From: a virus | DNA length: 27,086 nt | Strand: one strand, 5' to 3' | IMG/VR virus record: IMGVR_UViG_3300045912_000638 | Location: 1-27,086 of that record | Shown here: piece by piece, positions 1,824 to 7,362 of the stretch | Layout: every line of letters starts with the position of its first letter | Numbering within the stretch: the stretch's first letter is position 1 | Program-made: the position numbers and the translations under genes | The notes under the pieces: model-generated | What the model saw: only the letters and a program-made list of their open reading frames with translations | What the model was told of the DNA's origin: nothing | Database searches by the model: none

Positions 1824-2183
1824 TCAGGCGAGGCAAAAAGAAATCACCCATACTTCAACTGCCAAGTCTGCCTGTGCGCCATGAATTGCCCGCCACGCTT
1901 CAAAGAACGCCTCGCGCGAGGCAAAGCCTTCCGCACGCGCATCCTTCGTGGAAATATCTTCAAGGCGTTCACGGCGCAATCCTGTAATCCTGATGCGGGC
2001 AACTGCCTTTTTGCCACGTCCCGGCTGCACTGCATACGTCTTATTCACTTGATAGACGCTGCGCTTGCCCTTCATATAGATAAATTGTTGATCGGGCGTG
2101 AGTGTTTCACCTGCTTTGACGAGGCGGCGTGTTTGCGATTTGCATCCGCTCAGAACAAGGTTCAATGTGTGGGCAAAAATCAT
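1824..2183 (-). CDS. ASCH-domain (PUA-like) protein
   Basis: This 119-residue protein has the layout of small ASCH-domain proteins, which share the PUA-like beta-barrel fold and are thought to bind RNA or modified nucleotides. The N-terminus MIFAHTLNLVLSGCKSQTRR matches the usual opening where the protein lists its target site of the form (G)xKTxTxR, followed by YQVNKTYAVQPGRGKKAVARIRI, the strand pair typical of the family, and a C-terminal EAFFEAWRAIHG helix before a final VWVISF strand. It is transcribed on its own, convergent with the lysin, from an extended -10 promoter near 2226-2234. Phages often carry single ASCH genes, but a role in the infection cycle is not established; translation control or modified-nucleotide chemistry are possibilities. 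The ribosome-binding site is weak. Confidence 0.75.
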   Translation of the reverse strand: MIFAHTLNLVLSGCKSQTRRLVKAGETLTPDQQFIYMKGKRSVYQVNKTYAVQPGRGKKAVARIRITGLRRERLEDISTKDARAEGFASREAFFEAWRAIHGAQADLAVEVWVISFCLA

Positions 2184-2375: not shown

Positions 2376-2651
2376 TTATCGCACGAACAGGCGGACGCGG
2401 TGGCGTTCGCAGAGCGCCAAGAATTCCCCTAGCAGCAGCGCGCTGTTGGCGCTGCTGGCGAGCAGCTGACGCGCTGCTGACGCTAATTGATGAAATTCTG
2501 ATGTTCGCGCCGTCTGGTCTGCCCAGACGCGTGCGATACGCACCGCGAAACGGGTTGTGTTCGGATCATAAGATAACAACGACTCGATGACCAGCAGCTC
2601 TGCTGCTAGGCGGTCTGACTTCAGTTGATTGATCTTGCTTTTCTTAGCCAT
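2376..2651 (-). CDS. Unknown 91-residue helical protein
   Basis: The family is not recognised. The protein has a basic N-terminus (MAKKSKINQLKSDR) followed by a Leu/Ala-rich, probably all-helical body and a basic C-terminus. A GAGAGGAAC ribosome-binding region precedes the start. It is transcribed alone from a strong sigma70-type promoter (TATAAT at 2688-2693, -35 TTGACT at 2711-2716, spacing 17), diverging from the Csx15-like gene and sharing that gene's candidate operator. Two strong terminators follow. This isolated, tightly bounded unit looks like an early accessory gene, possibly acting against or modulating the host, but nothing in the protein proves it. Confidence 0.6.
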   Translation of the reverse strand: MAKKSKINQLKSDRLAAELLVIESLLSYDPNTTRFAVRIARVWADQTARTSEFHQLASAARQLLASSANSALLLGEFLALCERHRVRLFVR

Positions 2652-2687: not shown

Positions 2688-2719
2688 ATTATACTATTGA
2701 GTTTATGTAAAGTCAATAG
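2688..2719 (-). promoter_or_regulatory. Leftward sigma70-type promoter with operator
   Basis: On the minus strand the -35 TTGACT (2711-2716) and -10 TATAAT (2688-2693) are separated by 17 bases. The promoter lies within a 26-base inverted repeat, CTATTGA-N12-TCAATAG (2694-2719), whose arms cover the -35 and abut the -10. It drives the 91-residue gene and belongs to the same family as the sites at 2764 and 5441. Confidence 0.8.
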
Positions 2720-2763: not shown

Positions 2764-2793
2764 TTGACATACGTTCGCGGTCAATAGTATAAT
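2764..2793 (+). promoter_or_regulatory. Rightward sigma70-type promoter with operator
   Basis: The -35 TTGACA (2764-2769) and -10 TATAAT (2788-2793) are both perfect, with 18 bases between. The spacer ends in GTCAATAG, which pairs with TTGAC of the -35 as an inverted repeat. The stretch from -35 to about 7 bases past the -10 is nearly identical to the promoter at 5435-5463 on the other strand. It drives the Csx15-like gene. Confidence 0.85.
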
Positions 2794-2835
2794 GTATTCA
2801 GAGTTCAAAAGCAGAAGGAAAGGGAAAATGATCGT

Positions 2836-3186
2836 ATGATTATATTAAACTTCTCGAAGCGCGTCATTTCCGCACGCACGCTCGCTGCCTTGGCGCGGCT
2901 CGGTGAGATGCCGATTGTTGTGACATCAGTGATTCCGCCGCGCAACGACATCGCGCTGCCGGCGCGTGTCGAGGCGGCGGTGCGGTCGCTTGGGTTGGAC
3001 CCTCGGCAGAACTATTCTATCGTTCTGCCCAATGATGCGTTGACGTCCGCGCTGCTGATCGCTGCCATTCGCAGCGCCCACGGGCATTTTCCGTGGGTAC
3101 TCGAATTGGCGCACGAAGGCACTTTAGCAGAGATTCATTCACTTTCGGCGCGTTACCCTAGCGCTGATGATAAGCAGAATGGGTAA
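2836..3186 (+). CDS. Csx15-like protein, candidate anti-CRISPR
   Basis: The 116-residue product resembles Csx15, a small protein found beside type III CRISPR systems. The shared features are the N-terminal strand MIILNFS (residues 1-7), a middle segment with SIVLPNDALTSALLIAAI (about 61-78), and the hallmark SAHGHFPWVLEL (about 80-91) corresponding to the Csx15 LHGRxGxFPxxxRL signature, followed by AEIHSL. Csx15 is associated with cyclic-oligoadenylate binding or turnover in type III immunity. A phage copy with no cas genes beside it is most simply read as an antagonist that removes or sequesters the signal. The gene follows a near-consensus promoter with an operator and is probably co-transcribed with the 133-residue gene downstream. 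The match is from memory of the family pattern, not from a search. Confidence 0.65.
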   Translation: MIILNFSKRVISARTLAALARLGEMPIVVTSVIPPRNDIALPARVEAAVRSLGLDPRQNYSIVLPNDALTSALLIAAIRSAHGHFPWVLELAHEGTLAEIHSLSARYPSADDKQNG

Positions 3187-3199
3187 CAGGAGTAGGAAA

Positions 3200-3601
3200 A
3201 TGAGTACAACATTCTACACGGGCAAAGGCCCGTGGCTTAAGTGGCGGGATAACATCCGCCCCGTCATGTGGGTGGCGGATGGGCTGGTCGTTTGGTCGTT
3301 CGATCCTGATGACTACACGGTCATCAGTCGAAAAGACACGACACTGCGAGATATGCTTCCGACTTGCGGGCTGCCGTTTGCGCCCTTCCGCCTCGTGCGC
3401 GATGATCCATCTGCGCCAGCGCCCATCCGATGGGCGAAGGTGGATATGAACAAACGGCCTCTGGTTCTTGTCAGCTTTGACATTGAGCCACCTGACTTAC
3501 CCTCTTTCTTTCCACCTTGCTACCCGCAAGTGTGCGTGAAGGACATCCCGCGCTACACCCGTGCCGGTCAAACCTATCACTGGTTCTTGTGCCGGCTATA
3601 A
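3200..3601 (+). CDS. Unknown 133-residue Trp/Pro-rich protein
   Basis: I choose ATG 3200 because ACAGGAGTAGG sits just upstream; an in-frame ATG at 3167 would overlap the Csx15-like gene. The family is not recognised. The protein is rich in Trp, Pro and aromatic residues, with GPWLKWRDNIRP near the start, a central VVWSFDPDDY strand and a C-terminal cluster of Cys, Tyr and His (CYPQVCVKDIPRY, TYHWFLCRL). No membrane segment or signal peptide is visible. It lies 13 bases behind the Csx15-like gene on the same transcript, which makes it a candidate partner in the same anti-host activity. A strong hairpin follows its stop. Confidence 0.55.
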   Translation: MSTTFYTGKGPWLKWRDNIRPVMWVADGLVVWSFDPDDYTVISRKDTTLRDMLPTCGLPFAPFRLVRDDPSAPAPIRWAKVDMNKRPLVLVSFDIEPPDLPSFFPPCYPQVCVKDIPRYTRAGQTYHWFLCRL

Positions 3602-3721: not shown

Positions 3722-4171
3722 TCAACTAGCCCGTCCAACTGTCTCCCACCTTCCGTCTCGCGCCCGGCGCAGCTGCCCGCTTATTTCCAGCTTCTTCAAA
3801 TGAAACGCGGCACTGCTGGCATGCGCCAAACCCACGCCGTGCGCGATTTGCGTGTAGCTCGGAAAGCAGCCGTTTCGCGCCTCCCAACGCTTAACAAACT
3901 CCAAGATGCGTGCGCGCCGCGCCGCGCCTGAGCGCGTCCCATGACCGTCTGCGAGCGCCAAATCGTCCCGCCCCCCACCGCTTGCCGGGACGGCCTGGCC
4001 GTAGGGAGTCGCTTTGAGGTAGCCATCGGCGACTAAGCGCTGCACGTGGTAATGCGCGTTGGTGAGCGCGCAGCCAACTGCACGCGCAATATCGCGCAGT
4101 GATGGCGCGGTGGCGTGTTCGGCGTGGAATTGGCAGATGAAGTGATAAATCTTTCGGCGCGTTTCGTGCAT
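3722..4171 (-). CDS. Tandem LexA-type winged-helix DNA-binding protein, candidate repressor
   Basis: The 149-residue protein contains two copies of the LexA N-terminal winged-helix pattern. Copy one (about residues 3-56) has RRKIYHFICQF, APSLRDIARAVG and ALTNAHYHVQRLVADGYL. Copy two (about residues 84-137) has RRARILEFVKRW, FPSYTQIAHGVGL and SSAAFHLKKLEISGQL. A Gly/Asp-rich linker (about 61-83) joins them. The S24 self-cleavage domain of LexA and CI-type repressors is absent. Two fused DNA-binding domains could bind an inverted repeat as one chain. It lies between the operator-bearing promoters at 2.7 and 5.4 kb and is therefore my candidate for the regulator that binds them. GGAGAG precedes the start, and an inverted repeat, TTAAC-N6-GTTAA, lies upstream. 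Confidence 0.75.
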   Translation of the reverse strand: MHETRRKIYHFICQFHAEHATAPSLRDIARAVGCALTNAHYHVQRLVADGYLKATPYGQAVPASGGGRDDLALADGHGTRSGAARRARILEFVKRWEARNGCFPSYTQIAHGVGLAHASSAAFHLKKLEISGQLRRARDGRWETVGRAS

Positions 4172-4251: not shown

Positions 4252-5391
4252 TTATTCTGCGCTGCTGAAAACGCCGAGCGCCGGCGGCAGTGATTCTAGC
4301 ACTGCCAATCCCTTTTTTGTTATCCGCCCGGCGTGGTCGAGCAGACCACGCTTTCGCAGATTCTTTCGAATCTGTCGGACGGAGAGGTACTTCGGTCGGC
4401 TGCCGACCGCGGCAGCGCGTAGGATTGCGACCGCCGTCTCCGAAAGCTGGCCGTCGGTACCCCAGGCAGCCTCGGCTGACTGGGCATCAATTAGCCACAT
4501 CCCATTGTGGCTGGCCAGCTTTACCGCGCTGATCAGCCCGGATTGGCACGCTTTCTGCACGGCGTCGCGGGTGATGCCGTAACGCTGTGCAGCTTCACGA
4601 ACTGTTATTTGTTGCGCTACTTCCACTTGATTCGCTCCTCGAGCAAACTGGTTGAATCGCGGCGGCGCGGGCGGCGGTGCGGGTGGCGGCGGCGGCGGCG
4701 GTGGCGATGGCGGCGTGTCGGGCGGTGCGTCAGGCGGCGTGTCGGGCGTATCGTCTGACGGCGTGTCGTCTGACGGCGGCGTGGGCAGCAGCGCGGCGAG
4801 CGCGGCTGCGATGGCGGCGTGGTCGGCGTCAGCGTGGGCATTCAGCCCGCGCGCACCAATCACCTTCCCATCCGCGTCACGTACCAACTCGCCGGGCGTG
4901 AGCAGGTCGGTGCGATCCGCAAGCGCAGACGCGAAGAGACCGGAAACGATGTAGAACGTGCCGGGTGTCACCGGCGGCACGTTCTCAGGCTGTCCGAAGG
5001 CGCTGACATACACGGCATAGCCGCGCACGTCAGCAACCTCGCGGCGCACGGTCGAAATGCGCGGGAGCGGCATGTCGGCTTTAGCAATTCGGAGGGTTTC
5101 CCCTTCCGCTGACACCAACACGATTTCGTGTGGTGTCGAATTTACAATGGTTGGCGTTGGGGTGGGCGCGGGCGCGTCGGGCGTGGACGGCAGGTAGTCG
5201 CGGATTGCATCCGCGATAACCTGATCCAACTCTTCTTCGGTGAACTCGCCGCCTTCGTAGACTATGAAGGTGCCAGTCAACTGCTCGATCTCAACGCGGA
5301 GTCTCTCCGCGTCATAATCGGCGATGAAGTCGTTGGTATCAAGATATGCGCGAATATAGCTGTCTAGGTTTTGGCTGTTCATGCTGTTCAT
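4252..5391 (-). CDS. Multidomain phage protein with IVNxTPH domain, Pro-rich linker and C-terminal HTH
   Basis: The start is set at 5391 because the promoter -10 lies at 5435-5440, downstream of the longer reading-frame start, and GAAGGAT precedes ATG 5391. The 379-residue product has an acidic N-terminal segment (about 1-67). A domain at about 82-184 opens with IVNSTPHEIVLV and ends with PGELVRDADGKVIGARGL, a pattern I associate with hypothetical phage and actinobacterial proteins of unknown function. A long Pro/Asp-rich linker (about 204-245) follows, then a helix-turn-helix (about 262-312, TVREAAQRYGITRDAV) and a second winged-helix-like tail (about 315-370). It has its own operator-controlled promoter and terminator. 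The architecture suggests a regulator or an origin- or centromere-binding factor, but its function is unknown. Confidence 0.7.
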   Translation of the reverse strand: MNSMNSQNLDSYIRAYLDTNDFIADYDAERLRVEIEQLTGTFIVYEGGEFTEEELDQVIADAIRDYLPSTPDAPAPTPTPTIVNSTPHEIVLVSAEGETLRIAKADMPLPRISTVRREVADVRGYAVYVSAFGQPENVPPVTPGTFYIVSGLFASALADRTDLLTPGELVRDADGKVIGARGLNAHADADHAAIAAALAALLPTPPSDDTPSDDTPDTPPDAPPDTPPSPPPPPPPPAPPPAPPRFNQFARGANQVEVAQQITVREAAQRYGITRDAVQKACQSGLISAVKLASHNGMWLIDAQSAEAAWGTDGQLSETAVAILRAAAVGSRPKYLSVRQIRKNLRKRGLLDHAGRITKKGLAVLESLPPALGVFSSAE

Positions 5392-5434
5392 GGTGTATCC
5401 TTCTTCTTTCTGTCTATCTCTATCATTTGAATAC

Positions 5435-5466
5435 ATTATACTATTGACTTTAACGCATGTCAATAG
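5435..5466 (-). promoter_or_regulatory. Leftward sigma70-type promoter with perfect operator
   Basis: On the minus strand the -35 TTGACA (5458-5463) and -10 TATAAT (5435-5440) are both perfect and 17 bases apart. CTATTGAC-N10-GTCAATAG (5441-5466) is a perfect 8-bp inverted repeat covering the -35 and the whole spacer. A bound protein would block RNA polymerase directly. It drives the 379-residue gene. Confidence 0.9.
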
Positions 5467-7286: not shown

Positions 7287-7362
7287 GTTCGCAGCGCTGC
7301 TCAAGCTCTTTCACTTTGTAAGAGTTTGAGCGTGGAAGTGAGTTCGCAGCGCTGCTGGCGCG
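7287..7362 (+). repeat. Second copy pair of the GCAGCGCTGC repeat flanking a hairpin
   Basis: AGTTCGCAGCGCTGCT occurs twice, with the palindromic cores at 7291-7300 and 7346-7355. Between them is a 12-bp stem, GCTCAAGCTCTT (7299-7310) and AAGAGTTTGAGC (7320-7331), with one G-T pair. The element overlaps the 3' end of the HTH gene ending at 7301 and supplies its last codons (RQQRCELTS). The same core and flank occur at 613-654. Confidence 0.7.

Follow-up and report, generated by a model that had tools for sequence, protein, structure and literature searches.

A probable remote homologue of Csx15 encoded by a phage close to a Crn4 ring nuclease gene: a candidate sponge for cyclic oligoadenylate

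Does a phage gene resembling those for Csx15 encode a protein that acts on the cyclic oligoadenylate (cOA) signal of host type III CRISPR systems and, if so, would that protein cut the signal or hold it? The known Csx15 proteins are encoded by cells. One of them, PfCsx15, serves as a sponge for cA4; another, CliCsx15, neutralises type III immunity in vivo (PMC13148439). Csx15 was absent from a survey of 28,114 phages in which AcrIII-1, Csx20 and Csx16 were present (PMC12409355), and the absence of Csx15 from phages is remarked on by the Csx15 authors themselves (PMC13148439). The gene considered here lies in a linear IMG/VR virus record of 27,086 bases, which was analysed whole and is referred to below as the window. 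Its phage origin is backed by genes for terminase, portal, major head (capsid) and tape-measure proteins. A replication module is also present, with DnaB, an O-like initiator, a RecT-like protein and a partition protein. The features of the locus are collected in Table 1.

Table 1. Features of the csx15-like and crn4 region, in window coordinates.
Feature	Position	Strand	Basis
Third promoter, TTGACT-17-TATAAT, before ORF 2376-2651 (-)	2688-2716	-	promoter scan
csx15-like promoter, TTGACA-18-TATAAT	2764-2793	+	promoter scan
21-bp block GTCAATAGTATAATGTATTCA in csx15-like promoter	2780-2800	+	sequence comparison
Leader mini-ORF ATG ATC GTA TGA, its stop overlapping the csx15-like start codon	2828-2839	+	read from sequence
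csx15-like gene, 116 aa, ATG to TAA	2836-3186	+	ORF list
Next gene, 133 aa, closely downstream of the csx15-like gene	3200-3601	+	family search
Gene with N-terminal extension, Crn4 domain, Pro-rich linker and HTH	4252-5391	-	PADLOC, PDB, Pfam, PHROGs
Excisionase-like helix-turn-helix (HTH) of the Crn4 gene	4471-4611	-	HTH_17 E 2e-5, just under the Pfam cut-off; phrog_7506 E 6e-6
Crn4 domain, equivalents of Crn4a T13, H15 and R112 kept	4834-5151	-	PADLOC, PDB
21-bp block identical to 2780-2800, in crn4 promoter	5428-5448	-	sequence comparison
crn4 promoter, TTGACA-17-TATAAT	5435-5463	-	promoter scan

The 116-residue reading frame, which an earlier note on this DNA had singled out, is real, and its exact coordinates were reproduced. 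Its position-specific GC content (0.62/0.47/0.66) is coding-like and resembles that of the accessory genes elsewhere on the contig. Both sequences on which the comparison with Csx15 had been founded are present, ILNFS at the N-terminus and the signature GHFPWVLEL. The overlap of the leader mini-ORF with the start codon would make translational coupling to the csx15-like gene possible. The protein of the next gene downstream gave no family match. Elsewhere in the accessory region, an ASCH-domain protein is encoded at 1824-2183 (-) (Pfam E 6.5e-6), and the protein encoded at 3722-4171 (-), a possible phage repressor, has two winged-HTH segments (a LexA-type DNA-binding domain plus HTH_20/HTH_36). 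Short repeats of TCGCAGCGCTGCTGACG are dispersed at 604-654, 2459-2483 and 7289-7361 of the window.

Profile comparisons indicate that the protein is very probably a remote homologue of Csx15. The NCBIfam Csx15 model NF040560, which is the sole NCBIfam match, scores it at 19.1 bits (E 0.0012) and thus short of the curated cut-off of 35 bits; the same model gives 43.1 bits for a 96-aa fragment of PfCsx15 and 109.6 bits for a fragment of CliCsx15. Csx15 is likewise the only PADLOC match (E 0.017), PfCsx15 (9tet) is the only PDB sequence match (E 0.074), and searches of Pfam and PHROGs gave no match. The Csx15 alignment set consists of Bacteroidota genes, mainly from Chlorobiaceae; the family search at E <= 0.01 over 394 Bacteroidota genomes gave no evident false match. 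An HMM of Csx15 alone scores the phage protein at 18.9 bits, against a maximum of 12.7 bits in 100,000 composition shuffles; of 392 segments of the window, the best-scoring unrelated one reaches 4.3 bits. With hhalign, the alignment to the Csx15-only set covers residues 2-105 at a probability of 94.3% (pairwise E 1.1e-7), whereas three other proteins of the window, used as controls, reach 0.4%. In register with the Csx15 alignment are the N-terminal I-N-F-S, a correctly spaced GHFP and, beyond the stretch to which the curated model matches, a C-terminal AEI..L. The protein is also of Csx15 size, and its identity to Csx15 is about 23-30%. The description "Csx15-like" therefore holds in the sense of a remote homologue on a phage, with a profile match that is real and above chance, but not in the sense of a score that passes the curated threshold.

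Structure prediction from the single sequence with AlphaFold2 reached a pLDDT of 45, too poor for use. When seven Csx15 rows were added, the pLDDT rose to 63.5 with a pTM of 0.52; this model is weak and, because Csx15 rows were supplied, partly circular. In it the strands and helixes follow the order expected from PfCsx15 (9tet) and CliCsx15 (9teu). The top 20 Foldseek matches of the weak model in the PDB include T. thermophilus Csm6 and Cam1, none of them significant. Csm6 and Cam1 are cOA-sensing CARF proteins. The solved Csx15 structures, 9tet and 9teu, are not among the matches listed, from a library that may or may not include them.

Would such a protein cut its ligand? Functional residues of PfCsx15 are S9, H11, H82, R116, R120 and R123, and those of CliCsx15 are H13 and H90: of their variants, PfCsx15 H11A no longer binds cA4, CliCsx15 H13A no longer cleaves, and CliCsx15 H90A has almost no activity (PMC13148439). 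With Pf H11 and Cli H13 as reference points for the numbering, we infer that H82 and H90 are the histidine of the LHG that directly precedes GHFP, and on the same numbering the GHFP histidine was rejected as the catalytic one. In the phage protein, where GHFP occupies residues 83-86 and AEI..L residues 98-103, PfCsx15 S9 is retained as S7. The motif-I histidine (Pf H11/Cli H13) is replaced by R9 and the second conserved histidine (Pf H82/Cli H90) by R79, so that a positive charge is retained at both positions, and the two arginines might conceivably re-create a surface that binds phosphate. For the conserved C-terminal arginines (R116, R120 and R123 in PfCsx15), the comparison was made with the Chlorobiaceae tail: opposite its arginines the phage protein has S104, Y107 and D111, and R106 lies close by.

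Because both histidines are arginine and the C-terminal arginines are unaligned, the protein is not expected to be a competent Csx15 ring nuclease. Cutting of cA4 in the Csx15 manner is very unlikely, and the candidate was rejected as a working ring nuclease on account of the two catalytic histidines. Of the two activities proposed in the earlier note, sequestration or cleavage of cOA, the second is thus left without a working Csx15 active site. The behaviour of PfCsx15 H11A suggests that the phage protein may have lost binding as well as catalysis. If it does bind cOA, the role of a sponge would be the more likely one.

The window had also been described as free of cas genes. No cas operon is seen, but a Crn4 ring nuclease domain had been overlooked about 1 kb from the csx15-like gene. 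The domain matches PADLOC Unk_01 at E 4.2e-18, and the protein matches Crn4a and Crn4b in the PDB (E 4.6e-13 and 3.2e-5, respectively); this match is stronger than the csx15-like finding itself, to which Crn4 is unrelated in sequence. As in the Crn4/Unk_01 proteins of known structure (9sma, 9qs9, 9r7b), the domain has the catalytic His and Arg. It is preceded by an N-terminal extension, of a kind described for some phage Crn4s. In a departure from the known Crn4 proteins, it is fused through the Pro-rich linker to a C-terminal HTH. The linker and excisionase-like HTH are unusual for a Crn4, and the extension past the Crn4 domain runs to about 190 aa, versus a maximum of 140 among 80 other viral Crn4s. 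Crn4 cleaves cA3, cA4 and cA6, and was found in 11 of 28,137 phages (PMC12830947). In our searches it occurs in 15 of 50,697 phage records, and relatives are present in at least 101 IMG/VR viral contigs (L059-L138 among them), which is wider than the 11 published phages. Since Crn4 is rare in phages, its close linkage here lends independent support to a role of the csx15-like protein against type III CRISPR signalling.

The promoters join the two genes further. The near-consensus promoter previously noted in front of the csx15-like gene was confirmed, with both hexamers perfect, and part of it recurs as an identical 21-bp block in the promoter of the crn4 gene. The sequence (G/C)TCAATAGTATAATG is common to these two promoters and to the third near-consensus promoter of the region, and all three contain an inverted repeat, TTGAC..(G/C)TCAA, which is possibly a shared operator. 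Judged by their sequences, the three promoters likely belong to a common phage regulon, and the csx15-like and crn4 genes are apparently under common control. A strong promoter that is partly shared with the Crn4 gene makes an anti-type-III role of the csx15-like protein plausible.

We suggest that the phage directs a non-catalytic cOA sponge, in the form of a diverged Csx15-type protein, together with the Crn4 ring nuclease against host type III signalling, a proposal that we hold to be evenly balanced between right and wrong. The strong promoter would give rise, perhaps early in infection, to a diverged Csx15-type protein with the fold of the CARF superfamily, and this protein would bind the cOA produced by the type III CRISPR system of the host. 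Without the catalytic histidines, it would hold cOA uncut, as a sponge does, and Crn4, made from its near-identical promoter, would degrade the same signal molecules. That the pair amounts to the first virus-encoded Csx15 serving as a cOA sponge with Crn4 under twin promoters, a sponge-plus-nuclease counter-defence, is offered more tentatively, with our judgement leaning slightly against it. In its strongest form, Crn4-HTH may also read the host cOA alarm and adjust phage promoters. If true, a phage-borne Csx15 would run counter to the reported absence of Csx15 from phages, and the locus, where the promoter sequence is shared with Crn4, would offer a natural experiment on whether sponging, added to degradation, is of use against type III CRISPR. 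It would also be a sign that phages deploy several proteins at once against a single signalling pathway.

AcrIII-1 (viral Crn2) and AcrIII-2 (a viral ring nuclease of the SAVED type) are also viral proteins directed at cA4 signalling, but these are active nucleases and belong to other sequence families. In a published structural comparison, Csx15 matched AcrIII-2 best (PMC13148439). The proposed sequestering of a defence second messenger without cutting recalls the phage sponges Acb2, Tad1 and Tad2, although they, too, are of other families, and the defences that they are known to counter are mainly CBASS and Thoeris rather than type III CRISPR (PMC12043709).

The histidine losses can be read in another way. 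Crn4 alone may counter type III immunity, with the csx15-like protein, derived from Csx15, having lost cOA binding and changed its job, for example to another nucleotide, a host protein or direct contact with host CARF proteins. The replacement of both histidines and the absence of aligned arginines at the C-terminus fit a change of job, as do the abolition of cA4 binding by H11A in PfCsx15 (PMC13148439) and the sufficiency of Crn4 by itself as a ring nuclease (PMC12830947). The csx15-like gene is, moreover, found in none of the 80 other Crn4-bearing viral contigs examined. Against this, the near-identity of the csx15-like and crn4 promoters suggests a common task, and R9 and R79 keep the positive charge of the positions that they occupy; we consider such a change, the chief rival to the sponge proposal, possible but doubtful. 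The unusual form of Crn4 prompts a further reading, in which Crn4-HTH regulates the shared promoters in response to cOA, with the csx15-like protein as a buffer of that signal. The fused excisionase-like HTH, a C-terminal extension beyond those of all 80 other viral Crn4s and an inverted repeat that could be the operator are in keeping with a switch of this kind. The intact catalytic residues of Crn4 fit degradation instead, and the match of the putatively DNA-binding HTH is just under the Pfam cut-off; we regard the switch as highly improbable.

The resemblance might instead be accidental, the N-terminus and GHFP of an orphan phage protein matching those of Csx15 without any kinship. The ORF was selected by motif, probably from many windows, which inflates chance similarity. 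For the search of an entire library the E-values are borderline, and a chance fragment picked by the motif pattern can score 16.9 bits. Yet the profile alignment is nearly full-length and takes in the C-terminal motif, the shuffles and controls score far lower, and the linkage to the rare Crn4 is independent evidence, so that an accidental resemblance appears unlikely.

In our searches the gene is a singleton; it would be the first viral member of Csx15, and a strongly diverged one. Among 50,697 phage records and 72,556 plasmids, tblastn found nothing convincing with the phage protein or with fragments of both solved Csx15s. Viral and genome contigs scanned with the phage protein alone gave no relative, and no match from scans of viral contigs with the Csx15 alignment was confirmed. 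Among 9,487 reading frames around the 80 other viral Crn4 genes, the Csx15 HMM gave 11.3 bits at best, and that best frame (L059 8374), which lies over a real ORF, was rejected as spurious. A GHFP-type DNA pattern picked out 14 stretches, none with the N-terminal motif and all judged to be chance. The earlier note had proposed looking for the same gene in related phages, and none was found to carry it. The downstream gene and DnaB, used as bait for related phages, gave nothing; the terminase led to one contig, L002, which is 94% identical but stops short of the csx15-like region, so that the gene is unconfirmed in a second contig.

In Chlorobiaceae (L003-L012 and related loci), the cellular Csx15 frames often extend upstream into a hydrophobic segment ahead of the Csx15 domain, which is possibly a membrane anchor. 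In another contig, L032, the longer protein encoded by an ORF starting at 900 (+) ends in a divergent Csx15 domain, and its N-terminal part resembles, by eye, an AlbA/Schlafen-type domain.
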